Below, piece after piece: positions 5,970 through 30,231 of a stretch of DNA of 30,231 nucleotides. The first letter of the stretch is position 1. Each line of letters starts with the position of its first letter. The DNA is from a virus: positions 1 to 30,231 of the IMG/VR virus record IMGVR_UViG_3300031758_000383; one strand, written 5' to 3'. Position numbers and translations under genes: made by a program. Under the pieces are notes generated by a model that did not search any database, was not told the origin of the DNA, and saw only the letters and a program-made list of their open reading frames with translations.

Positions 5970-6437
5970 TTACTGTTTACCAGCTATCTTCTCTTGTCCA
6001 CGTGTCCAAGCAGCAACACCAAGGATGGCACCGAATGCCATGTGAATCAATCCACCATTATCAAGTGTGATTGACTTCCACGGGATGTATGTCATGCCTT
6101 TTAAGAATTGTGGCATGAACATCGCGATGATTGGAAAAGCAACGAAGTCACAGAAACACATGATCATGTAAAGCCAGCCCATAGCTGGTCTCCACATTGA
6201 TTTCATCCACGGTTCTTCTTGCTTAGCGTTTTCCGCTTTCCATTTTTCTCTTTCTAATTCAATGGCTGCAAGTTGTGCTGCCTCTGAAACTTGTGGTGTT
6301 GCGCTTGGTCTTGATGGACCAGTATCAACATAACTAGTTTGTATAGATGCAGCTGCACCCTTTGTTGCGGGTGGTAGCTGATCCATCGCAGGCTTTGGTG
6401 CTACTGGTTCGTCGTCTAGTGTACCGAATTTAGGCAT
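5970..6437 (-). CDS. Holin-like protein (three-TM, GTA-holin type)
   Basis: 155-residue protein with a soluble Ala/Pro/Gln-rich N-terminal half. The C-terminal half resembles the three-TM GTA-holin family: PWMKSMWRPAMGWLYMIM, then a second segment through FPIIAMFMPQF, then NGGLIHMAFGAILGVAAW ending in a charged TRGQEKIAGKQ tail. A holin would permeabilise the inner membrane at lysis. It follows the endolysin gene directly: the endolysin TAA overlaps the first of two tandem ATGs. The second ATG (6437) has GGAGG at 6 nt and is preferred. Family call rests on the W..AMGWLY and FGAILGVAAWTRG signatures. Timing of lysis is not inferable. Confidence 0.75.
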   Translation of the reverse strand: MPKFGTLDDEPVAPKPAMDQLPPATKGAAASIQTSYVDTGPSRPSATPQVSEAAQLAAIELEREKWKAENAKQEEPWMKSMWRPAMGWLYMIMCFCDFVAFPIIAMFMPQFLKGMTYIPWKSITLDNGGLIHMAFGAILGVAAWTRGQEKIAGKQ

Positions 6438-10538: not shown

Positions 10539-10816
10539 TACACTTTCTTTTCTTCCTCTTCTTCCTCTTCCTCTTCTTGTTCTGCGAGAAGTGCTAATGA
10601 AGCAGCAACACTATTCATAGTACTAGTCAACTTCTCAATAATTGTATCTTGACTGTAAATTGTAACCCAACAATAAGCAGCCCAAAATGACATCAACACC
10701 ATATTACCATATGTAAAAGTATCAAACATGCTATTAGACATGAATGTGAAATAAACAAACATTGCAGCTGAATATGCACTAGCAATGAGAGGGAAATATT
10801 TCCTATAAAAATGCAT
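10538..10816 (-). CDS. Small two-TM protein with poly-Glu tail
   Basis: 92 residues with two hydrophobic segments (about 8-27 and 37-55), an amphipathic helix, then an unbroken run of nine Glu followed by KKV. The run is encoded by an imperfect trinucleotide tract (about 10545-10575) that could change length by slippage. TAATG overlaps on both sides make it the middle gene of a three-gene unit with the radical SAM protein. No family recognised. Confidence 0.72.
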   Translation of the reverse strand: MHFYRKYFPLIASAYSAAMFVYFTFMSNSMFDTFTYGNMVLMSFWAAYCWVTIYSQDTIIEKLTSTMNSVAASLALLAEQEEEEEEEEEKKV

Positions 10817-11964
10817 TATGACTCCTTGATATATTCTTTCAGCATATCATACAATTCTGGATTATGATCCATCCAGTGTTCACTTCTAATGTTATTAAGC
10901 TTATTATCTATCTCTAAGAATGAATTGAAATTTCCTGGTTTTTTCATCATTTCATTTTCAACCATCCTATAAGTATAATCGTCTATTTTATTTTTTAGAT
11001 TAGAGAGAATACGATATTTAACTTCAAGAGGTAAGTTAAAACACTTTAACCAGTCTCTTCCATCCACCATATGCCACTCTATACCAATCTTATATAAGTG
11101 TTTCTGTTTTAAATATTCTTGTAACTTATAGAATTGGTTTACATTATAAATCGATATGACAGAAAAAATCTTTACTTTGGTTCTTTTATTTCTAGGATGA
11201 TTTTCAGCGAACCAATCAATAACTTTCTCTACATTCTCCCATTGACTACCTTTTCTTAAGAAACTGTTTAAACTACCATAAGCATCTACGCTTAGATTTA
11301 CAGATAAAAATTCACACTGTTTTAATAATGCATTTAATGCTTCACTTGGTATTAGAGTAGTATTTGTTGTTAAAAATATTTTAAGTTGTGATAAGTTACA
11401 TTTATTGAGTATTTCAATAAACTTTTTTTCTTCCATCAGTGGCTCACCACCAATTAGTTTTATGTGACGAAGTTTTGAGAAATCATATATTTCAAATAAT
11501 TCTTTGCTATATTTAACACCAGAAATTCCGTCTTTTATATTTACACCAAAAAAATCTAATCCTAATTTAATAGCATCACTATACCAATTAGTACTTAGTC
11601 CCGGATTACACATCCTACATCTATTATTACACACATTACTTAGAGCCAGATCAAGATGAGTTAATACTGGATTTTCTGGTATTGTTGTTCCTAATTGTTT
11701 AGCAAAACCTAAACGCATACTTGATGTATTATTGCTAGTTTTTTCTTGTTCATAACAAGAAGAACATCCAGCCACATATTCATCTTTTATCATGCTCTCA
11801 CGAAGTTGTTGCATGAACGGATGATTGAACACATCATCATGTGATAAGTCTAAATCTTTAGGTGTGTGTTCCCACCTAAATTGACAACACGGGAAAACAC
11901 GACTATCGGGACGTACAGCTATATGATGAAATGGTAAAAGACAACGATGTTTATATTCAGTCAT
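10816..11964 (-). CDS. Radical SAM protein, twitch-domain type
   Basis: About 382 residues. The radical SAM cluster motif is CNNRCRMC (CxxxCxxC, near residues 112-119), which would bind the [4Fe-4S] cluster that cleaves S-adenosylmethionine. A GGEPL motif for SAM binding follows about 55 residues later. Before the motif is a Cys-rich segment (RCLLPFHHIAVRPD, PCCQF, CSSC), typical of the SPASM/twitch-like auxiliary cluster region seen in phage and cyanophage members. The substrate is unknown; relatives modify peptides or cofactors. Tandem ATGs at 11967 and 11964 share AGGA; the second has better spacing. Low GC matches the two downstream genes. Confidence 0.85.
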   Translation of the reverse strand: MTEYKHRCLLPFHHIAVRPDSRVFPCCQFRWEHTPKDLDLSHDDVFNHPFMQQLRESMIKDEYVAGCSSCYEQEKTSNNTSSMRLGFAKQLGTTIPENPVLTHLDLALSNVCNNRCRMCNPGLSTNWYSDAIKLGLDFFGVNIKDGISGVKYSKELFEIYDFSKLRHIKLIGGEPLMEEKKFIEILNKCNLSQLKIFLTTNTTLIPSEALNALLKQCEFLSVNLSVDAYGSLNSFLRKGSQWENVEKVIDWFAENHPRNKRTKVKIFSVISIYNVNQFYKLQEYLKQKHLYKIGIEWHMVDGRDWLKCFNLPLEVKYRILSNLKNKIDDYTYRMVENEMMKKPGNFNSFLEIDNKLNNIRSEHWMDHNPELYDMLKEYIKES

Positions 11965-11977
11965 CATATATTCCTAA

Positions 11978-12073: not shown

Positions 12074-12619
12074 TTATTTGCGCCAGGGTTGTCTAAGATA
12101 AGACAAGATATTTTCTGGACTTGTTTCGCCATAAGGATCTGTTTCACAGTCATCACAGATCCCGGGTTCTTCGAACCAAGCTTCGATGATACCATCATTA
12201 ACTACTGCAGCATAACGCCACGAACGTTCACCAAATCCAAGATTCATCTTAGATACTAACATACCAAGTTCAAAAGTAAACTGGCCATTACCATCAGGAA
12301 TCACTACAACATTTTCAATGTTCTGTGACTTAGCCCACGAATTCATTACGAATGAATCATTGACTGACATACAATAGATGGCATCAATTCCATACTTCAT
12401 GAACTCATCATAGTTCTTCTCAAAGCCGGGAAGCTGATAAGTTGAACACGTAGGTGTGAATGCACCAGGCAATGAGAACAAGACTACACGCTTATGCGCA
12501 AAGAAGTCTCGTGAGTTGACTGTCTCCCAACGATATGGGTTATCACCACCAATACTCTCATCACGTACACGAATCATAAAATCTACATCTGGTACTGGTC
12601 GACCAACATTAGTTACCAT
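12074..12619 (-). CDS. Peroxiredoxin (Prx5/AhpE-like)
   Basis: 181-residue thioredoxin-fold peroxidase that would reduce hydroperoxides. The catalytic motif LPGAFTPTCS carries the peroxidatic Cys at about position 58 and matches the Prx5 family consensus; the following YQLPGFEKNYDEF and the SVNDSFVMNSWAK block are also typical. The C-terminal CDDC in the tail could supply a resolving cysteine. The start was taken at ATG 12619 (MVTNVGRPVPDVDF), where Prx5 homologues begin, although the frame is open 12 codons further with poor start signals. It overlaps the upstream gene by 11 bases. Such genes occur in T4-like phages of aerobic hosts. Confidence 0.92.
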   Translation of the reverse strand: MVTNVGRPVPDVDFMIRVRDESIGGDNPYRWETVNSRDFFAHKRVVLFSLPGAFTPTCSTYQLPGFEKNYDEFMKYGIDAIYCMSVNDSFVMNSWAKSQNIENVVVIPDGNGQFTFELGMLVSKMNLGFGERSWRYAAVVNDGIIEAWFEEPGICDDCETDPYGETSPENILSYLRQPWRK

Positions 12620-12944
12620 AATATTCTTCACCCTTTTCTGCATAGAATCTAGCAATAGTTAAAGCTTTTGCTTCTGTGTAGTCAGTAATAGCACTCTCTT
12701 CATAATGAGAAGAGAGTTCATTGTATGCACCCTCATTCACTACTTTATATGAGATACGTATATTGTCTTTATACACGTGTACATCAATAGCTATAATCTC
12801 TTTGACTTTTGTATAAGATTCAAAAGAATCTATTTTACGCTGCCAAGTCTCACCCTCATAAGTAAGTTCTTCAACTGCGTATGTCTTACGACATCGCGGC
12901 ACAATAAACTTATGACCTATGTCATATGTAGTTTCGATGATCAC
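12609..12944 (-). CDS. Hypothetical 111-aa protein
   Basis: Soluble protein with DIGHKFIVPRCRKTYAVEE near the start and an FYAEKGEEYYGN end. No ATG is in range. A GTG at 12944 has AGAGG 8 nt upstream and overlaps the preceding stop as GTGA, so it was preferred to a TTG two codons earlier. Overlap with the peroxiredoxin start suggests coupling. Similar beta-rich small proteins occur in large phages but no function is known to me. Confidence 0.72.
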   Translation of the reverse strand: MIIETTYDIGHKFIVPRCRKTYAVEELTYEGETWQRKIDSFESYTKVKEIIAIDVHVYKDNIRISYKVVNEGAYNELSSHYEESAITDYTEAKALTIARFYAEKGEEYYGN

Positions 12945-13931: not shown

Positions 13932-14474
13932 TTAGAACTTGTAGTTTACACCGGTTGTAACGCGATCTTCGGCATTACGGTTGGCTTTCTCGATAGCATC
14001 GATCCGACGATAGCGTACATCAAGCTCAACACTTGGTACGATCTCGTACTTAGCACCAACACCAATGTTATAAACGGAATAATCTGCAGTTACAGAATTC
14101 CAACGATAACCAACACCGCCGATACCATAAACGGTAACGTCAACGCCGGGAATCTTGTACTGTGGTACAACGTTTAGAGCAAATGTATTGCCATAATTCC
14201 ACTCACCACCAACCTTAGTCTGTGGACGAGAGAAGTCATATGTACCCTCTACTGCGAGGAACGGAAGGACGTTCCAGCCAGCAACAGCACCACCAGAGTA
14301 GACGCGAGCATCTTCACTCAAGTTTGCACCGACATTAACACCAGCATAGAACTGAGTCTGTGCGAGTGTTGGAAGTGCCGGAGCAGCCGGAGCCTTCTTT
14401 GAAGGTAGATCAGAAGCCGAAGCTGCTGCTGCCGACGCAAGAAGAGCGAGCGCCGCTACGATAGTCTTTTGCAT
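13932..14474 (-). CDS. Outer-membrane beta-barrel protein, Omp25/31-like
   Basis: 180 residues: signal peptide to about residue 20 (LALLASAAAASA), mature start SDLPSKKAPAAPALP, then alternating strands typical of an eight-stranded barrel (FYAGVNVGANLSED, AVAGWNVLPFLAVEGTYDF, VYGIGGVGYRW, NIGVGAKYEIVPSVELDVRY). It ends in VTTGVNYKF with the terminal Phe used for outer-membrane assembly. The DLPSKKAP linker is a hallmark of rhizobial and Brucella surface barrels, so this looks host-derived. In a phage it may mask or replace a receptor after infection, or alter the envelope. AGGAG precedes the ATG and a terminator follows the stop. Confidence 0.9.
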   Translation of the reverse strand: MQKTIVAALALLASAAAASASDLPSKKAPAAPALPTLAQTQFYAGVNVGANLSEDARVYSGGAVAGWNVLPFLAVEGTYDFSRPQTKVGGEWNYGNTFALNVVPQYKIPGVDVTVYGIGGVGYRWNSVTADYSVYNIGVGAKYEIVPSVELDVRYRRIDAIEKANRNAEDRVTTGVNYKF

Positions 14475-23603: not shown

Positions 23604-23810
23604 ATGACAGACGTACTAGATGAACTGACACAGGCATATAGCTTTACCAGAGATGAACTTCTTGGTAAAGCTATCGACGAGATCGCTCAACAACGTAGAC
23701 ACATCGAGAACCTCTCTCGAGAACACTCAGACCTACGACATGAGAATCAGATCCTCGTAGAGATCAATCGAGACCTACACTGGAAAATGGAATATGAGAG
23801 GAAACACTAA
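23604..23810 (+). CDS. Hypothetical 68-aa coiled-coil protein
   Basis: Entirely helical by composition: MTDVLDELTQAYSFTRDELL then QRRHIENLSREHSDLRHENQ, a heptad-like coiled coil ending KMEYERKH. Weak ribosome-binding site (GGATAGAGAA). Its stop overlaps the phosphatase start (TAATG), so expression is coupled to that gene. Confidence 0.7.
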   Translation: MTDVLDELTQAYSFTRDELLGKAIDEIAQQRRHIENLSREHSDLRHENQILVEINRDLHWKMEYERKH

Positions 23811-24268
23811 TGTCCGATGCATTTACACAGGAAGAAGCATGGATCTTCGACATGGATGGTACACTCGCTAACTCTAAATGGCGACAACACCACCTCATGG
23901 GCATCAAGAAAGACTGGAAAAGCTGGAATACCGGCATGATCCACGACCTGCCAAATCATGAGATCATCCAGTTTACTCATATCGCTAAGGAAAAAAACAT
24001 CGCTGTCATAGTCTGTACAGGCCGAGAGGATACATACAGAAAAGACACCGAAGATTGGCTCAAGATGCACTGCGTTTCCTACGATATGCTCTTCATGCGA
24101 AAGGCAAAAGACTATCGCAAGGATCAATTCATCAAGAAAGAAATGCTCGAGACTATCAAGTTTCTTAACTACAACCCTACACTCTCTTTCGACGATCGCG
24201 ACCGAGTGGTCAAGATGTGGCGAGAAGAAGGTATCCGATGCTTTCAGGTCGACTACGGCGACTTTTAA
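23810..24268 (+). CDS. HAD phosphatase, polynucleotide kinase 3'-phosphatase-like domain
   Basis: 152 residues. HAD motif I is FDMDGTLA with nucleophile D14 and acid D16; motif II is VIVCTGRED (Thr70); a Lys in KDYRKDQFIKK (104-110) fits motif III; motif IV is SFDDRDRVVKMW with D128/D129. LFMRKAKDYRKD and DDRDRVV...WREEG closely resemble the C-terminal phosphatase half of T4 polynucleotide kinase (PseT), which removes 3' phosphates from broken RNA or DNA. No P-loop kinase domain is present or adjacent. In a phage rich in tRNAs and RNA genes, a role in RNA end healing is plausible; a nucleotidase role cannot be excluded. Confidence 0.85.
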   Translation: MSDAFTQEEAWIFDMDGTLANSKWRQHHLMGIKKDWKSWNTGMIHDLPNHEIIQFTHIAKEKNIAVIVCTGREDTYRKDTEDWLKMHCVSYDMLFMRKAKDYRKDQFIKKEMLETIKFLNYNPTLSFDDRDRVVKMWREEGIRCFQVDYGDF

Positions 24269-25378: not shown

Positions 25379-25455
25379 GGACCCTTAGCTCATTTGGTTA
25401 GAGTAGCGGTCTTTTAAACCGTTGGTACTGGGTTCGAATCCCAGAGGGTCTACCA
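25379..25455 (+). tRNA. tRNA-Lys (anticodon TTT)
   Basis: Acceptor GGACCCT/AGGGTCT with one G-U, discriminator A, encoded CCA; CGGTCTTTTAAACCG anticodon arm. Confidence 0.93.
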
Positions 25456-25472
25456 TAATATGGAGAAGTGTA

Positions 25473-25706
25473 ATGAAGAAGATCTTTTTAGCAAGCGCAT
25501 GTGGATTATTTTTGGCCGGTTGCAATGCAACTGTCTATGATAGTCGTCCATCAGTGTATGTTCCTCGGCCGGCAGTAGTCGTACCACCGGTGTATGCACC
25601 GTTGCCACCGCCGCGTCCTTACTATGTTCGTCAACCTCGTAGAGAGTGTTTTACGACATGGGACCGTACTCCTTATGGGCTGCGCGAGCGAGTTGTCTGT
25701 CGTTAA
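25473..25706 (+). CDS. Small lipoprotein inside the tRNA array
   Basis: 77 residues: MKKIFLASACGLFLAGC is a lipoprotein signal (lipobox LAGC, mature Cys17). The mature part is proline- and tyrosine-rich (YVPRPAVVVPPVYAPLPPPR) and ends YGLRERVVCR. This is the look of small rhizobial outer-membrane lipoproteins, suggesting host origin. GGAGAAGTGTA sets ATG 25473. Its place between tRNA-Lys and tRNA-Ser means it is transcribed with the tRNAs. Possible roles are envelope change or superinfection exclusion; neither is shown. Confidence 0.8.
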   Translation: MKKIFLASACGLFLAGCNATVYDSRPSVYVPRPAVVVPPVYAPLPPPRPYYVRQPRRECFTTWDRTPYGLRERVVCR

Positions 25707-25712
25707 AAGTTT

Positions 25713-25802
25713 GGAAGGGTGGCCGAGTGGTTTAAGGCTCCAGTCTTGAAAACTGGCGTAGGCGCAAGTCTACCGTGAGTTCGAATCTCACCTCTTCCGC
25801 CA
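25713..25802 (+). tRNA. tRNA-Ser (anticodon TGA)
   Basis: Acceptor GGAAGGG/CTCTTCC, discriminator G, CCA encoded; anticodon arm CCAGT-CTTGAAA-ACTGG; long class II variable arm (about GCGTAGGCGCAAGTCTACC). Confidence 0.93.
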
Positions 25803-25807
25803 AATAA

Positions 25808-25885
25808 CCCGTGTTAGTGTAGCGATCAAACATACCCGCCTTTCAAGCGTGGAGATCATGGGTTTGAATCCCATACGCGGGACCA
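25808..25885 (+). tRNA. tRNA-Glu (anticodon TTC)
   Basis: Acceptor CCCGTGT/ACGCGGG, A, CCA; anticodon loop CTTTCAA. The anticodon stem has a mismatch (CCCGC/GCGTG) and the D arm is irregular, but the T arm is good. Confidence 0.82.
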
Positions 25886-25889
25886 ATAC

Positions 25890-25965
25890 GGACCGTTAGC
25901 TGAGTTGGTTTTAGCAGGAGACTCTTAATCTCTTGACGGGGGTTCGAATCCCTCACGGTCTACCA
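25890..25965 (+). tRNA. tRNA-Lys (anticodon CTT)
   Basis: Acceptor GGACCGT/ACGGTCT, A, CCA; anticodon arm GGAGA-CTCTTAA-TCTCT. Second lysine isoacceptor of the array. Confidence 0.9.
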
Positions 25966-25975
25966 AAAAGTTTAT

Positions 25976-26052
25976 TCGCTTGAACCCGAATGGGTATCGG
26001 GACCTGACTGTTAATCAGGCCACTGTAGGTTCGAATCCTACCAAGCGAGCCA
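25976..26052 (+). tRNA. tRNA-Asn (anticodon GTT)
   Basis: Acceptor TCGCTTG/CAAGCGA, G, CCA; D stem CCCG/CGGG; anticodon arm CCTGA-CTGTTAA-TCAGG. Confidence 0.92.
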
Positions 26053-26055
26053 AAT

Positions 26056-26126
26056 TTGAAGTGTCGGCTTATAGCACTATAAATAAACCGATATATCATC
26101 ACCGAGTGTTAGTGATGACGCTTCAA
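26056..26126 (+). other. Stem-enclosed late-promoter box between tRNA-Asn and tRNA-Val
   Basis: TTGAAGTGTC (26056-26065) pairs with GACGCTTCAA (26117-26126), 10 bp with one G-U. Inside lies an exact TATAAATA (26078-26085) and a 7-bp hairpin TCATCAC/GTGATGA. A late transcript starting near 26091 would lose the left arm. Confidence 0.45.
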
Positions 26127-26135
26127 GCCAATTAT

Positions 26136-26210
<75 letters not shown>

Positions 26211-26223
26211 TTTTATAGGATAT

Positions 26224-26391
26224 ATGATGAATGAGTTTGTGATTGAAGTTGGTGATAAGCGTTTGCAAGTTCATGCAAACAATATGATTGAAGCTATTTA
26301 CATAGCTAGATCATACAACCAAAAGCGACAAACTTATAGAGTAACAGATACAAAGACTGGAAAAACCGTAACAGGTATTCCACTTGATTAG
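26224..26391 (+). CDS. 55-aa hypothetical protein within the tRNA array
   Basis: MMNEFVIEVGDKRLQVHANN, then MIEAIYIARSYNQKRQTYRV and TDTKTGKTVTGIPLD: strand-helix-strand, like the small proteins of the early region. AGGATAT precedes the first of two ATGs. It ends 3 bp before tRNA-Ala. Lower GC than the tRNAs around it. No family recognised. Confidence 0.72.
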   Translation: MMNEFVIEVGDKRLQVHANNMIEAIYIARSYNQKRQTYRVTDTKTGKTVTGIPLD

Positions 26392-26394
26392 TTC

Positions 26395-26470
26395 GGGGCC
26401 ATAGCTCAGCTGGGAGAGCGCTTGATTTGCATTCAAGAGGTCTGCGGTTCGATCCCGCATGGCTCCACCA
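26395..26470 (+). tRNA. tRNA-Ala (anticodon TGC)
   Basis: Acceptor GGGGCCA/TGGCTCC, A, CCA; loop ATTTGCATT with stem CTTGA/TCAAG. The 60-bp spacer after it holds a 12-bp palindrome CGTGGGCCCACG. Confidence 0.93.
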
Positions 26471-26530
26471 ATAACGGTTAGTCGCGATAAATAGACTCGC
26501 GTGGGCCCACGGTTAGCCCATAACAGTTTC

Positions 26531-26606
<76 letters not shown>

Positions 26607-26612
26607 TATTGA

Positions 26613-26687
26613 CGCAGAGTGGAGCAGTAGTAGCTCGTTTGGTTCATACCCAAAAGGCCGGTGGTGCAATTCCATCCTCTGCAACCA
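26613..26687 (+). tRNA. tRNA-fMet-like initiator (anticodon CAT)
   Basis: Acceptor CGCAGAG/CTCTGCA leaves C1-A72 unpaired, the hallmark of formyl-methionine initiator tRNA; A73 and CCA follow. Anticodon arm TTTGG-TTCATAC-CCAAA. It has two, not three, G-C pairs next to the loop, so it is not a perfect bacterial initiator. Confidence 0.8.
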
Positions 26688-26690
26688 ATT

Positions 26691-26894
26691 CACAGGGATG
26701 GGTTCCTGTGCGTCACCAACATCACCGATCGCACGGTCTGATGTTGGGTATAGTGACCAGCCACTGAGGTCTGGAGTGTGCGATCGTCTAACCCATAAAA
26801 TCTGACACGCGAAAAGGTGTCGCTGGATGGCAGTAACCAGCTATGTTATAAAACGGCTAATAGTAGCAAATATTAGTAGCCGTTTCATAACATA
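26691..26894 (+). ncRNA. Pseudoknotted structured RNA between tRNA-fMet and tRNA-Asp
   Basis: Hairpin 1: CACAGG/CCTGTG (26691-26710); its loop ATGGGTT pairs with AACCCAT (26790-26796). Hairpin 2: CCAACATCA/TGATGTTGG (26716-26747); its loop CGATCGCAC (26726-26734) pairs with GTGCGATCG (26778-26786). Then GACAC/GTGTC, GCTGG/CCAGC and a long hairpin (26842-26894: TATGTTAT/ATAACATA and AAACGGCT/AGCCGTTT). Every stem of 5-9 bp is perfect. No open frame explains it. T4 also has two stable RNAs of unknown function in its tRNA cluster; any relation is only positional. Confidence 0.7.
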
Positions 26895-26896
26895 TT

Positions 26897-26973
26897 GGCC
26901 TCGTAGCTCAGTTGGTTAGAGTGCCAGCCTGTCACGCTGGAAGTCGCCGGTTCGAGCCCGGTCGAGGTCGCCA
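26897..26973 (+). tRNA. tRNA-Asp (anticodon GTC)
   Basis: Acceptor GGCCTCG/CGAGGTC, G, CCA; anticodon arm CCAGC-CTGTCAC-GCTGG. Confidence 0.94.
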
Positions 26974-26974
26974 T

Positions 26975-27050
26975 TCCGGAATAGTTCAGCTGGTAGAACA
27001 TCAGACTCTGAATCTGAGTGTCGGTGGTTCGAATCCATCTTCCGGATCCA
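26975..27050 (+). tRNA. tRNA-Gln (anticodon CTG)
   Basis: Acceptor TCCGGAA/TTCCGGA, T, CCA; anticodon arm TCAGA-CTCTGAA-TCTGA. It complements the TTG isoacceptor at 11978-12053. Confidence 0.92.
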
Positions 27051-27055
27051 AGCTT

Positions 27056-27132
27056 GGGGAAGTGCGCTGGAGAGGCAACAGCAGGGTCTGCAAAACCTTC
27101 GAATGTCGGTTCGAATCCGATCTTCCCTTCCA
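27056..27132 (+). tRNA. tRNA-Cys (anticodon GCA)
   Basis: Acceptor GGGGAAG/CTTCCCT, T, CCA; D stem GCTG/CAGC; anticodon arm AGGGT-CTGCAAA-ACCTT. Confidence 0.9.
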
Positions 27133-27133
27133 T

Positions 27134-27210
27134 GTCTCGTTAGCTCAACTGAATAGAGCGTCGGTCTACGGAACCGAAGGTTGAGGGTTTGATTCCTTCA
27201 CGGGACTCCA
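27134..27210 (+). tRNA. tRNA-Arg (anticodon ACG)
   Basis: Acceptor GTCTCGT/ACGGGAC, T, CCA; anticodon arm TCGGT-CTACGGA-ACCGA. A34 implies conversion to inosine by the host TadA. Confidence 0.92.
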
Positions 27211-27213
27211 TTT

Positions 27214-27288
27214 GCGGGTGTAGCTCAGTGGTAGAGCGTCACGTTGCCAACGTGAATGTCGTGGGTTCGACCCCCATTGCCCGCTCCA
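27214..27288 (+). tRNA. tRNA-Gly (anticodon GCC)
   Basis: Acceptor GCGGGTG/TGCCCGC with wobble pairs, T, CCA; anticodon arm TCACG-TTGCCAA-CGTGA. Confidence 0.92.
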
Positions 27289-27293
27289 ATAAT

Positions 27294-27370
27294 GCGCGTG
27301 TGACGGAATTGGTATACGTATTAGTCTTAGAAACTAAGTTTTGCAGGTTCAAGTCCTGCCATGCGCACCA
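27294..27370 (+). tRNA. tRNA-Leu (anticodon TAG), short variable loop
   Basis: Acceptor GCGCGTG/CATGCGC, A, CCA; anticodon arm TTAGT-CTTAGAA-ACTAA; T arm GCAGG-TTCAAGT-CCTGC. Only about five bases (GTTTT) lie in the variable region, whereas leucine tRNAs normally have a long arm. Confidence 0.88.
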
Positions 27371-27376
27371 TAAATT

Positions 27377-27488
27377 AGGTTCACTACAGCATATAGACAT
27401 GATAATAGGAAAGTTCCGGTGTACAATTCCGGAGGACCTAAGGGTCTTAGTGTAATAGGCTAGCACGTCCTAACCTAAGTGTGAACCT
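27377..27488 (+). ncRNA. Y-RNA-like element A (permuted tRNA-like core)
   Basis: Terminal stem AGGTTCAC (27377-27384)/GTGAACCT (27481-27488), followed at once by the shared motif TACAGCATA. The core, in order, is a T-arm-like hairpin (TCCGG/CCGGA, 27415-27433), an acceptor-like stem closed by a tetraloop (GGACC-TAAG-GGTCT, 27434-27447) and a D-arm-like hairpin with GG in the loop (GTG/CAC, 27450-27466). This T arm, capped acceptor, D arm order is the tRNA-mimicking domain described for bacterial Y RNAs. It starts 7 bp after tRNA-Leu. The 3' flank is GCATAG, unlike the CTGTTGA of elements B-E. Confidence 0.68.
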
Positions 27489-27498
27489 GCATAGTTTT

Positions 27499-27612
27499 AG
27501 GCTATCTACAGCATATCTTTCGCCTTGTAAGCCGTAGGTCGTTGGTTCGAATCCAACTAGGAGCTCTTTGCTTCTATAGCTCAGCGGATAGAGCAACGTA
27601 AATGCATAGCCT
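27499..27612 (+). ncRNA. Y-RNA-like element B (clear circularly permuted tRNA)
   Basis: Terminal stem AGGCTAT (27499-27505)/ATAGCCT (27606-27612), then TACAGCATA on the 5' side and GTTGA after the 3' strand. The core is a tRNA read in permuted order: CTTGTAAG anticodon-loop-like remnant, variable GTAGGTCG, perfect T arm GTTGG-TTCGAAT-CCAAC (27541-27557), acceptor 3' strand TAGGAGC (27558-27564), linker TCTTT, acceptor 5' strand GCTTCTA (27570-27576), TA, D arm GCTC-AGCGGATA-GAGC (27579-27594). All seven acceptor pairs form (one G-U). The anticodon arm is replaced by the terminal stem, as in Y RNAs bound by Ro60/Rsr. Confidence 0.8.
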
Positions 27613-27626
27613 GTTGAAAATAAATG

Positions 27627-27654
27627 TTTACTTAATAAATCTTTATGGTATTAT
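27627..27654 (+). promoter_or_regulatory. Promoter between Y-like elements B and C
   Basis: TTTACT (27627-27632), 16 bp, TATTAT (27649-27654) preceded by ATGG, the same extended -10 used by the early promoters. Predicted start near 27661, so C, D, E and the Ro-like mRNA could be one transcript. Confidence 0.6.
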
Positions 27655-27670
27655 CAAGTTATAGAGTTTA

Positions 27671-27729
27671 AGGATCCGTACAGCATACTCGCCGTAAGGC
27701 ACTTTTATTGGAAAAAGCAAAGGGATCCT
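27671..27729 (+). ncRNA. Y-RNA-like element C (short form)
   Basis: 59 nt. Terminal stem AGGATCC/GGATCCT, 5' motif TACAGCATA one base after the stem, 3' flank GTTGAG. The core has a GCC-GTAA-GGC hairpin (GNRA loop) and an A/T hairpin CTTTT/AAAAG, with no tRNA-like part. It resembles a Y RNA reduced to the protein-binding stem. Confidence 0.62.
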
Positions 27730-27739
27730 GTTGAGTTTA

Positions 27740-27868
27740 AGATTGACCATACCGCAAAACATTTGACTCTTAGAGTCTTACAGCACTGATACAACTTTGC
27801 GAAGTTGTTATCCACGTGGATAGTTTCGAGGGTACACCACGTTAAAAAAGGAAAGTAGAAGTCAATCT
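27740..27868 (+). ncRNA. Y-RNA-like element D
   Basis: 129 nt. Terminal stem AGATTGAC/GTCAATCT, 5' motif variant TACCGCAAA two bases after the stem, 3' flank GTTGAG. The core has hairpin GACTC-TTA-GAGTC (27765-27777) and a 10-bp hairpin with a TGCG loop and one bulge (27788-27812, CAACTT/AAGTTG), then ATCCACGTGGAT and a GTTTCGA stretch that may be a T-loop remnant. The core fold is less tRNA-like than A and B. Confidence 0.6.
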
Positions 27869-27877
27869 GTTGAGTTT

Positions 27878-27929
27878 AGATTCAGTTCCGCATACATTAC
27901 AGTCTCGAAAAACTGACAAAGTTGAATCT
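27878..27929 (+). ncRNA. Y-RNA-like element E in the leader of the Ro-like gene
   Basis: 52 nt. Terminal stem AGATTCA/TGAATCT, 5' motif variant TTCCGCATA one base after the stem, small inner hairpin CAGT/ACTG, 3' flank GTTGAAAAGGAG. The flank contains the ribosome-binding site of the Ro-like gene, whose ATG is 20 nt from the stem, so protein binding here could repress its own translation. Confidence 0.6.
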
Positions 27930-27949
27930 GTTGAAAAGGAGAAAGTGAA

Positions 27950-29383
27950 ATGACTACTTTTGTAAATGCTGTTGTTAATCAGTCTGCTCGTACTGAGAAC
28001 GGGATGAAGGCTCGTCAGAATACTGCTAACGCACTTACTGACTTGTTTTTCAAGATCGGTGCTATGCGTGGCCAAAACGTAATCCCTGCTTGGACTGCAG
28101 CTCGCGTGCAAGATCCTGACTTAGCAGCTCGTGTTGCTCTGTGGGCACGTGACGTTCGTGGTGGGGCTGGCGAACGTAAGATCTTCCGCGATATTCTTGT
28201 TGATCTCGCTAACACTGACGCTTCTCAAGCAGCTGCTTTGGCACATAAGGTTCCTGAGCTTGGTCGCTGGGATGACCTACTTGTTCTCGTTGGTACTCCA
28301 ATTGAAGAAGTAGCATTCTTTCGGATCAAGTGTGCCCTTGAAGATGAAAACGGTCTCTGCGCAAAGTGGATGCCTCGTCAGGGTGAAGTAGCTGCAAAGC
28401 TGCGTAACTATCTTGGCTGGACTCCAAAGTTCTACCGTAAGCGTCTGGTTGAGCTGACTAAGGTTGTCGAGACTCAGATGTGTGCTAAGGACTGGGATAA
28501 CATCAACTTCAGTCATGTTCCTTCTGTTGCATCTGCACGTTACAAGAAGGCTTTCGCTCGTCATACTGAAAAGTATAAGGAGTGGGCAGCTGCGCTTGTT
28601 TCTAAGGATCCAGAAGTGCGCGAATCTGTAAAGGTTAACGCTGGTGCAGTGTATCCTTATGATGTATTGAAGGGTTTGTATAACGGTTATCATACTAACT
28701 ATGATAAGGCAAACTACGATCACATCGTAGCGCAGTGGGAAGCACTTCCTAACTATATTGGCGATGCAAGCATCTTGCCATTGGTTGACGTTTCTGGATC
28801 TATGACTTCATCTGCGGGTGGTTATAGCTCTAAGTCAACTACTACATGTCTTGACGTAGCTGTGTCTCTTGGACTGTATCTTGCAGACAAGAACAAGGGT
28901 AAGTTCAAGGATACGTTCTTGACTTTCTCTAGCAAGCCTCAGCTGATGCACCTCAAGGGTAATATCCTTGATAAGCACCATCAGATGTGCACTTCTAAGT
29001 GGGAGATGAATACAAATCTCCACGTTGCTATCCAGAAGATCCTCGATGTAGCAATCGAGGGTTCTGTGCCTCAGGAAGAGATGCCTTCAATGCTTCTTAT
29101 CCTGTCTGATATGCAGTTTGATATGTGTACTAATTATGACGATTCTGCTATGCAGATGATCGCTCGTAAGTATGCTGATGCTGGTTATGTCGTGCCTAAT
29201 ATCGTGTTCTGGAACTTGAATGCACATGACAATGTGCCTGCTCGTTTCAACGATAAGGGTGTTGCGCTCGTGTCTGGTTTCTCACCAGCGATCGTCAAGG
29301 GTATCCTTGCCGCTGATCTTGATGACTTCACACCAGAAGCCATCATGCTAAAGACGATCATGAGTGATCGCTATGACTACTAA
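27950..29383 (+). CDS. Ro60/TROVE-like RNA-binding protein with vWA domain (DUF2828 type)
   Basis: 477 residues. The N-terminal 270 residues are alpha-helical repeats with family signatures ALTDLFFKIGAMRG, ALWARDVRGGAGERKIFRDI, VPELGRWDDLLVL and CAKDWDNINFSHVPSVASAR. The C-terminal von Willebrand A domain has an intact metal site: DVSGS at 280-284, Thr355 in NTNL, and Asp387 in LSDMQFD. This ring-plus-vWA arrangement is that of Ro60/Rsr, which holds Y RNAs on its outer surface and threads defective RNA ends through its ring; the signatures best fit the DUF2828 branch as I remember it. Five Y-like RNAs lie directly upstream. AAGGAG precedes the ATG. Role in infection is inferred: RNA surveillance or tethering of a nuclease. 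Confidence 0.85.
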   Translation: MTTFVNAVVNQSARTENGMKARQNTANALTDLFFKIGAMRGQNVIPAWTAARVQDPDLAARVALWARDVRGGAGERKIFRDILVDLANTDASQAAALAHKVPELGRWDDLLVLVGTPIEEVAFFRIKCALEDENGLCAKWMPRQGEVAAKLRNYLGWTPKFYRKRLVELTKVVETQMCAKDWDNINFSHVPSVASARYKKAFARHTEKYKEWAAALVSKDPEVRESVKVNAGAVYPYDVLKGLYNGYHTNYDKANYDHIVAQWEALPNYIGDASILPLVDVSGSMTSSAGGYSSKSTTTCLDVAVSLGLYLADKNKGKFKDTFLTFSSKPQLMHLKGNILDKHHQMCTSKWEMNTNLHVAIQKILDVAIEGSVPQEEMPSMLLILSDMQFDMCTNYDDSAMQMIARKYADAGYVVPNIVFWNLNAHDNVPARFNDKGVALVSGFSPAIVKGILAADLDDFTPEAIMLKTIMSDRYDY

Positions 29384-29563: not shown

Positions 29564-29593
29564 TATAAATAAGTTCAAGGAGGACTTATTTAT
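29564..29593 (+). promoter_or_regulatory. Late promoter overlapping a hairpin that sequesters the HNH ribosome-binding site
   Basis: TATAAATA (29564-29571) overlaps the left arm of a perfect 10-bp hairpin: ATAAATAAGT (29565-29574), loop TCAAGGAGG, ACTTATTTAT (29584-29593). AAGGAGG is in the loop and the right arm runs into the ATG. Read-through RNA would fold and block initiation; RNA from the late box (start near 29577) would lack the left arm. Confidence 0.7.
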
Positions 29594-30017
29594 GATACAG
29601 AGGCAAAATAAAGTAACTGATGAAGAGATAATCTTATCTTATAATAAACATAAGCATTTAGGTAAAATCGCTGCTCAATTTAAGTTGCCCATGATTGAAA
29701 TATGGAGAAAGTGTAAGAAGCTTAGATTAGAATTTAATAATGGTGGTGGTCATAGAAAAAAAGTACCACTGTCAGAAATCTTAGAAGGACTACACCCATA
29801 TTTCCAAACAGGAAAAGTTAAGAAAAAACTTATACAAGAAAAAGTATTTGATTATAAATGTGTAGAATGTGGTATATCTCAATGGAATGATAAACCAATA
29901 ACTCTTCACCTAGATCATATAGATGGTGACAGTTCAAATCATATAAAATCAAACCTAAGATTTTTATGCCCAAACTGTCATTCACAAACAGACACATGGT
30001 GTGGAAGAAACAAGTAA
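29592..30017 (+). CDS. HNH homing endonuclease
   Basis: 141 residues. The N-terminal part (VTDEEIILSYNKHKHLGKIA, AQFKLPMIEIWRKCKKL) is a helix-turn-helix-like segment that may read the target site. The C-terminal HNH zinc nuclease has CVECG and CPNCH as metal ligands around LHLDHIDGDSSNHIKSNLRF, with the conserved DH and N. Such genes spread by cutting alleles that lack them. It lies between the halves of a possible interrupted tRNA and directly before tRNA-Tyr. AT-rich relative to surroundings. ATG 29592 is fixed by AAGGAGG; the frame is open further upstream without a start signal. Expression appears restricted to late transcripts. Confidence 0.88.
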   Translation: MIQRQNKVTDEEIILSYNKHKHLGKIAAQFKLPMIEIWRKCKKLRLEFNNGGGHRKKVPLSEILEGLHPYFQTGKVKKKLIQEKVFDYKCVECGISQWNDKPITLHLDHIDGDSSNHIKSNLRFLCPNCHSQTDTWCGRNK

Positions 30018-30018
30018 T

Positions 30019-30110
30019 GGGGAGTGCAAATAAGGACAGGTTGGTACCGTCGGATGACTGTAAATCATCTCCTTAAAGGCAAGAGGTTCGATTCCGTCCA
30101 CTCCCCACCA
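30019..30110 (+). tRNA. tRNA-Tyr (anticodon GTA), irregular
   Basis: Acceptor GGGGAGT/ACTCCCC, A, CCA; anticodon arm GATGA-CTGTAAA-TCATC; variable arm hairpin CCTT/AAGG. About eight extra bases separate acceptor and D stem, and the T stem (AGAGG/CCGTC) pairs poorly, so function is uncertain. Confidence 0.68.
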
Positions 30111-30160
30111 TCCGTTCCCTAAGGGTAACACTGGAGGTTCGAATCCTTCCCCACCTACCA
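30111..30160 (+). pseudogene. tRNA 3' half (T arm, acceptor strand, CCA)
   Basis: CCCTAAGGG resembles a class II variable arm; T arm GGAGG-TTCGAAT-CCTTC (30133-30149); acceptor strand CCCACCT, A, CCA. No 5' half lies directly upstream because tRNA-Tyr ends at 30110. It can pair with GGGTGGG at 29508. Confidence 0.5.
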
Positions 30161-30162
30161 TG

Positions 30163-30231
30163 CCGTTGGGTCGGTAGTGGCTATCGAGACGGTTTCATAC
30201 ACCGTTTAAAGTTGTTTCGAGTACAACCCTC
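30163..30231 (+). tRNA. tRNA-Met-like gene cut by the window end
   Basis: Anticodon arm ACGGT-TTCATAC-ACCGT (CAT) and T arm GTTGT-TTCGAGT-ACAAC; the acceptor 3' strand and CCA lie beyond the window. The 5' boundary is uncertain. Could be elongator Met or an Ile tRNA with modified C34. Confidence 0.55.

Follow-up and report, generated by a model that had tools for sequence, protein, structure and literature searches.

A phage RNA family with a covarying terminal handle and largely tRNA-derived cargo, encoded beside the gene of a predicted Ro/TROVE-fold protein

We analysed a 30,231-nucleotide (nt) stretch of viral DNA (IMG/VR record IMGVR_UViG_3300031758_000383, positions 1 to 30,231; hereafter the window), in which five tandem small elements precede the gene of a 477-amino-acid (aa) protein. 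The five elements belong to a family of phage RNAs with a common terminal handle. The pairing of this handle is kept by covariation, the family is linked to the same protein gene in many phages, and much of the material enclosed by the handle, here called the cargo, has the identity of tRNA pieces. The protein has, at the level of a structural model, the fold of the Ro60/TROVE proteins, and is referred to below as the Ro protein. The explanation that we prefer as a whole, and to which we give an even chance, is a phage Ro-type ribonucleoprotein that displays tRNA mimics, most likely as decoys. The RNAs are very probably made in the window phage and bound by the Ro protein, while a decoy function of the handle RNAs is a tentative proposal, somewhat short of an even chance.

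The five elements were recovered with an independent scanner, which searched the 30 kb of the window for AG-stems accompanied by a CNGCA motif and by a 3′ strand that matches the stem. Exactly these five units were found, far beyond chance, at the positions given by an earlier sequence-only reading of this DNA, together with one weak spurious site elsewhere. Element 1 (27377–27488, plus strand, 112 nt) has the handle AGGTTCAC/GTGAACCT, with CAGCATA at 10 nt. It is followed on the same strand by element 2 (27499–27612, 114 nt, with a GTTGA tail to 27617; handle AGGCTAT/ATAGCCT), element 3 (27671–27729, 59 nt plus GTTGA; AGGATCC/GGATCCT), element 4 (27740–27868, 129 nt plus GTTGA; AGATTGAC/GTCAATCT, with CCGCA at 12 nt) and element 5 (27878–27929, 52 nt plus GTTGA; AGATTCAGTT/AGTTGAATCT). 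The stems comprise 8, 7, 7, 8 and 10 pairs, respectively. As stated in the sequence-only reading, a 3′ tail follows four of the five elements, element 1 being without it. The distance from the stem start to CMGCA is 10 nt in four elements and 12 nt in element 4. Single-sequence folding was weak (z of −1.9, −1.4, −1.9, −1.5 and −0.1 for elements 1–5), and the case for the elements therefore rests on comparison with relatives.

In the relatives, the handle follows the formula N10-CAGCAA...N7′-GT, in which the first seven positions pair with the 3′ strand: a terminal stem of 7–8 base pairs (bp), CAGCAA at a distance of 10 nt from the stem's 5′ end, and GT(T) behind the 3′ strand. Once the set had been enlarged to 268 loci, 561 of 594 sites had the stem start 10 nt from CAGCAA. 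The spacing first described for the window, ‘0–2 nt’ between stem and motif, is better given as a fixed 10-nt register. We then examined the stems with a pairing-blind test, in which each 5′ signature was joined to the next 3′ signature by position alone and complementarity was ignored. All four free positions paired in 115 of 123 distinct units, comprising 31 different stems, whereas 1000 shuffles gave 11.7 such units on average and never more than 24. Covariation in related phages, on which the original claim of differing yet paired stems had been staked, was thus found. In an alignment of 42 short elements, which had been chosen with pairing required, six of the seven pairs changed on both sides and 100% of the cells paired; the covariation score was 0.72, compared with 0.17 when shuffled and at most 0.14 when slid. 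Among the 363 distinct elements collected from the enlarged set, all four Watson–Crick pair types were seen at stem positions 4 to 7. The handle scan was strand-specific, with 594 forward, 42 reverse and 19 shuffled matches, and a strand test by G-U versus A-C cells was uninformative (5 versus 2).

The family is closely linked to the Ro gene. In the first round, which covered the first 80 relatives, an element was present at all 75 loci (window included) whose upstream DNA spans at least 500 nt, often with three and with up to eight elements per locus. An element lies within 2 kb of the gene at 153 of 182 non-redundant loci, which is a lower bound, the strict scanner having missed some arrays such as that of Klebsiella phage KP13-16. 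Three handle elements stand just before the Ro gene of the 137-kb Listeria phage cka15 (25290–25552) and three just after that of the 76-kb mycobacteriophage Faith1 and its relatives; the handle is also present in Felixounavirus Alf5, Campylobacter phage CP81 and Synechococcus phage BUCT-ZZ01. In whole-genome scans of cka15 and Faith1, handles with the GT tail were nearly confined to the Ro locus. A calibrated covariance model, for which only elements from IMG/VR and the window were used, gave seven matches at E up to 1 over 604 kb in five other phage genomes, six of them beside the Ro gene. In 31 further sources, it gave 46 matches, two of which were window members of its training set, and all 46 lay on the gene strand. 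A search of bacterial genomes gave 12 matches, mostly on contigs of metagenome-assembled genomes and possibly of phage origin.

Following a pointer from the covariance model, four or five handle elements were recognized by eye downstream of the Ro gene of KP13-16 (L116, 15760–16330). This array includes a Ser(UGA) stem-loop, a permuted tRNA and a permuted tRNA with a Thr(GGU) loop, and has a shorter 3′ tail. Another related contig, L014, carries a match to the Rhizobiales small RNA Atu_At1 (6087–6193, minus strand; Rfam 70.8 bits, cut-off 60), which hints at an alphaproteobacterial host.

The gene directly 3′ of the array (27950–29383, plus strand) encodes a protein with a helical ring at about residues 25–270, followed by a vWA domain with an intact metal-ion-dependent adhesion site (MIDAS). 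Over residues 1–476, nearly its full length, the protein matches the phrog_850 profile ‘RNA-binding protein’ (1.2e-134), and in Pfam it matches DUF7788 (8.6e-46) and DUF2828 (4.1e-16), with no match to TROVE (PF05731). Searches of the PDB by sequence, single and profile, returned nothing relevant, and the fold was therefore compared instead. An AlphaFold model was built on 40 relatives and compared with the PDB by Foldseek. Ranks 1–10 were all Ro60/TROVE proteins (E 1e-8 to 3e-4), including Ro60 of Thermus phage phiLo (9l5y), Rsr of Deinococcus radiodurans (2nvo) and animal Ro60 with RNA, indicating that the predicted ring-plus-vWA fold is that of this family. The MIDAS (DxSxS ... T ... D) consists of D280, S282, S284, T355 and D387, all invariant in the 40 relatives. 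On both the Ro60/TROVE-like protein and its intact MIDAS, the sequence-only reading is supported. The family numbers 682 phage records and hundreds of IMG/VR contigs, and phage annotators label it ‘RNA-binding’, ‘Ro-like’ or Ro sixty-related.

The elements of the family fall into length classes of about 47–66, 82–97, 107–136, 147–185 and 200–254 nt. T-arms were detected in 22 of 29 elements of the 82–97 nt class, in 24 of 42 of the 107–136 nt class and in none of 73 short elements. A script identified a permuted tRNA in 33 distinct elements, consisting of a T-arm and an acceptor stem that a short loop closes; a D-arm, which the script did not require, often comes next. An anticodon arm at the correct distance before the T-arm was identified in 25 elements, eight of which are also permuted. 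Among 7260 interior-shuffled controls, one was permuted and none had the anticodon arm with T-arm. The handle is joined to these bodies in two ways. It stands in place of the acceptor stem in topology A, as in the tRNA-Lys body at L022 2037–2126, an arrangement of which we know of no earlier description. In topology B, it is inserted at the junction of the D-arm and anticodon arm, and the acceptor stem is closed, as in window element 2 and in L062 2862–2977, where a Phe anticodon arm is intact; this is the design of YrlA.

The third form of cargo is an anticodon stem-loop alone, displayed by RNAs of 50–60 nt. A canonical stem-loop (5 bp, loop C-U-NNN-A-N) is present in 37 of the 154 elements shorter than 70 nt, where interior shuffling predicts 0.2. 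Real tRNAs use 53 of the 256 possible loops of this form, and 79 of 88 such loops in the elements have an identical counterpart in a genuine tRNA gene of these contigs. The loops are kept while the stems drift; for example, the 20 occurrences of CTTGTAA are spread over seven different stems. U or A occupies position 36 in 58 of 66 loops, compared with 522 of 859 real tRNAs of the same loop form, and Thr-UGU, Lys-UUU and Asn-GUU are among the commonest anticodons. Long elements with the same handle (147–254 nt) have interiors that are not tRNA-like, as at L022 1681–1899, L036 2629–2867 and L065 2685–2919, the last two having much sequence in common.

In the window phage, two or three of the five elements are tRNA-related. 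Element 2 is a clear circularly permuted tRNA-Thr-like RNA, with a CTTGTAA remnant, a T-arm, an acceptor stem closed by a 5-nt loop and a D-arm. Element 1, with a T-arm-like TCCGG hairpin, GGACC/GGTCT and the D-arm-like TAGTGTAATAGGCTAGCAC, looks by eye like a diverged permuted tRNA; the strict script gave it no tRNA-like classification. Element 5 contains the hairpin CAGT-CTCGAAAA-ACTG, with the 8-nt loop CTCGAAAA, and was a training member of the covariance model. By position, it matches elements of relatives that carry a Ser(UGA) stem-loop; in the nearest relative (L001, protein 91% identical), the gene-proximal element holds the canonical form TCTTA-CTTGAAA-TAAGA. The cargos of elements 3 and 4 are found again in relatives but cannot be recognized as tRNA. 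The hairpins GCC-GTAA-GGC and CTTTT-ATTGGA-AAAAG of element 3 recur in L005, L010, L013 and L014, and the three hairpins of element 4 have counterparts in L001, L002, L003 and L008. Element 3 matched the covariance model at E 5.1e-8, but as a training member of that model.

As possible functions, the sequence-only reading had proposed RNA or tRNA surveillance or the redirection of a host nuclease; the tRNA-derived cargo points to tRNA mimicry. In the mechanism that we propose, the ring-plus-vWA protein would bind the set of small RNAs via their common handle, and each RNA would show a different cargo. Across the family, much of this cargo is a tRNA piece that cannot be aminoacylated, whether a lone anticodon stem-loop, a tRNA with the handle for its acceptor, or a permuted tRNA with a loop-closed acceptor stem. 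Held and protected by the Ro protein, these RNAs would tie up or divert the host nucleases and other factors by which particular tRNAs are attacked in infected cells, working beside the phage's own replacement tRNAs. An authentic anticodon loop without an acceptor end cannot translate, and thus its simplest use would be to engage proteins that recognize anticodon arms, the best known of which, in this setting, are host nucleases that cut tRNAs during infection. The targets of AriB/PARIS include Thr-UGU, Lys-UUU and Asn-GUU (PMC12409363), which coincide with common anticodons of the cargo, a match noticed after the fact. The array also adjoins tRNA genes, the window encodes a PNKP-phosphatase-like protein, and a role as competitive inhibitor has been proposed for the tRNA-like domain of YrlA (PMC7790460). 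By analogy with Listeria phage, in which a Ro homologue is found in virions, very early action would be permitted. An extension of the proposal, which we regard as possible and still speculative, is a widespread counter-defence machine, in which a Ro ring and a universal handle would present interchangeable acceptor-less tRNA baits to tRNA-cutting nucleases, with a repertoire that shifts with the arms race.

Several observations weigh against the preferred explanation as a whole. At least two of the window's own five elements are not tRNA-like; across the family, many elements are without a recognizable tRNA part, and nearly all those of at least 146 nt are not tRNA-like. Ser, Cys, Phe and Met are likewise represented among the anticodons, a range that no single nuclease explains. 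The AriB site U36AAU is only mildly enriched (26 of 32, compared with 52 of 89 real phage tRNAs; p 0.03, post hoc). As AriB also needs contacts beyond the anticodon loop, a stem-loop alone may be too little for it. The preference for U or A at position 36 could instead reflect t6A/i6A-modifying enzymes or AT-rich genomes. Finally, the AlphaFold model is of moderate quality (predicted local distance difference test 76.6, predicted template modelling score 0.63), with TM-scores of 0.39–0.56.

The main rival is a tether or gate of the kind found in Deinococcus, where the cargo would recruit a host or phage enzyme to the Ro protein, such as PNPase, another RNase, or a tRNA-modifying or repair enzyme that recognizes tRNA parts. 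The Ro protein would feed damaged or misfolded RNA, for instance cleaved tRNAs, to this enzyme, and different cargos would serve different partners. The Rsr–Y RNA–PNPase complex provides a worked-out precedent (PMC7790460, PMC12282133). The recurring non-tRNA cargos (element 4 and the classes of 146–254 nt) fit partner recruitment better than decoys, an end-repair protein of PNKP-phosphatase type is encoded in the window, and the U36/A36 bias with A37 fits recognition by a tRNA-modifying enzyme. However, a tether alone leaves unexplained why the exact anticodon loops of many tRNAs are kept while their stems drift, and we consider this reading a serious one that is rather doubtful as the full account. 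Far less probable is a cis-acting leader in the 5′ untranslated region of the Ro mRNA, through which the Ro protein would autoregulate its synthesis. Although 223 of 368 counted elements (all loci) lie within 500 nt upstream of the gene, arrays in mycobacteriophages, Felix O1-like phages and Klebsiella phages stand downstream of it or among tRNA genes, and autoregulation would need neither many elements per locus nor tRNA cargo. Tandem inverted repeats with variable interiors beside tRNA genes also recall repeats at the level of DNA, whether mobile elements or attC-like recombination sites, or else tRNA genes in decay, in each case without RNA function. This is a reading to which we give almost no credence, given the near-confinement to the Ro locus in whole-genome scans, the asymmetric motif at a fixed register, the location of 46 of 46 model matches on the gene strand, and exact tRNA loops on drifting, still paired stems. 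Attributions to attC/integrons and to miniature inverted-repeat transposable elements were rejected on the asymmetric motif and the genome-wide confinement.

The window phage is T4-like, with UvsX and a family B DNA polymerase. Its array of 15 tRNA genes (25379–27370, plus strand; ARAGORN and Rfam) is co-oriented with the elements and ends 6 nt before element 1. ARAGORN assigned the identities Lys, Ser, Glu, Lys, Asn, Val, Ala, Thr, Met, Asp, Gln, Cys, Arg, Gly and Leu, and an Rfam scan of the window at the gathering level detected tRNAs only. A 152-aa protein (23810–24268, plus strand) matches the PNKP 3′-phosphatase domain (4.2e-36) and probably has RNA/DNA end-repair activity, which would be relevant beside a tRNA-linked locus. 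Directly 3′ of the Ro gene, within the tRNA/RNA region, lies an HNH endonuclease (29592–30017, plus strand; phrog_14736, 1e-32), possibly a free-standing homing endonuclease. Further tRNA-like sequences were seen by eye at 30019–30231 (plus strand), without an ARAGORN call or an Rfam match at the gathering score; they comprise a Tyr-GTA-like candidate with a CTGTAAA loop, a T-arm and complementary acceptor ends, followed by more T-arm-like sequence. Promoter-like sites in the region numbered 7, compared with 9.1 expected from shuffles, and no promoter is claimed. On the minus strand, the phage also encodes a radical SAM protein (10816–11967), a peroxiredoxin-like Redoxin (12074–12655) and an outer-membrane beta-barrel protein (13932–14474).

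The fold match gives a structural identity to DUF2828 and DUF7788, two Pfam families of unknown function. With one phage protein family, a defined handle and dozens of natural cargos that are identifiable from their sequences, the purpose of Ro-bound RNAs becomes directly testable, as does the question of whether phages field tRNA mimics besides replacement tRNAs against tRNA-cutting immunity. The results suggest that viruses widely use copies of tRNA parts to fool, or to repair, attacks on tRNAs. The handle also serves as a search tool for adding these RNAs to hundreds of phage genomes whose annotation lacks them.

Compared with Ro60/Rsr (TROVE), the phage system has in common the ring-plus-vWA fold with MIDAS and a gene beside small structured RNAs, but its protein belongs to DUF2828/DUF7788 and phrog_850 rather than to PF05731. 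The description of the elements as Y-RNA-like holds for the terminal stem of paired 5′ and 3′ ends kept by covariation and for the position beside a Ro gene, but not for the sequence motifs of canonical Y RNAs. The canonical Ro-binding sequence of Rfam Y RNAs was not found, the alignment of element 2 with YrlA being mismatched in the outer stem. The Rfam search that the sequence-only reading had suggested matched only element 2, to YrlA (RF02553; 37.2 bits against a cut-off of 69, E 1.5e-6); elements 1, 3, 4 and 5 matched no Rfam Y RNA family even at E 10. The phage RNAs and YrlA are alike in the end-pairing stem, the permuted tRNA-like module, the closed acceptor stem and the linkage to a Ro gene, and element 2 has the T-arm, closed acceptor stem and D-arm of this module in permuted order. 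In contrast, the Ro-side stem of YrlA is in two parts (ggCga-AUGC / aAcUuG-ucGcc) where the phage RNAs have the N10-CAGCAA/GTT handle, and the phage sets have several cargos, including unpermuted acceptor-less tRNAs and bare anticodon stem-loops. Elements of relatives scored 29–46 bits with the YrlA model, all below the cut-off. Half of the control genomes (7 of 14) and a tRNA pair of the window (21 bits) also gave sub-cut-off matches to this model, and weak matches were therefore not taken at face value. The RNA family beside the phrog_850/DUF2828-DUF7788 gene is absent from Rfam.

Replacement tRNAs encoded by phages counter tRNA-targeting defences (PMC10264068, PMC11555353, PMC12409363). The handle RNAs occupy the same genomic neighbourhood and have overlapping identities (Lys, Thr, Asn and Tyr), but without an acceptor end they are unable to replace tRNAs and so would have to work as mimics or decoys. 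For Listeria phage CKA15, which has abundant non-coding RNAs, Y RNAs were suggested near the Rsr homologue CKA15_055, which was detected in purified virions with 20 peptides (PMC12282133). Three handle elements do stand just before CKA15_055, but the most transcribed region (26,236–26,727) coincides with a match to ROOL RNA and not with these elements. The ROOL match (RF03087; 86.1 bits, E 7.8e-16, cut-off 99.1) was seen in Listeria phage cka14 (L088, 3470–4021) and corresponds to about 26,195–26,746 in the CKA15 record OR088597, the region that the authors suspected as Y RNA. Y RNAs of mycobacteriophages were reported by Chen 2014, as cited in PMC12282133. The phage system works like Ro60–Y RNA and is related to it by fold. 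By sequence, it qualifies neither as TROVE nor as a Y RNA of Rfam; what we regard as new is a DUF2828-type Ro protein with an RNA handle of its own and a multi-member, largely tRNA-derived cargo.

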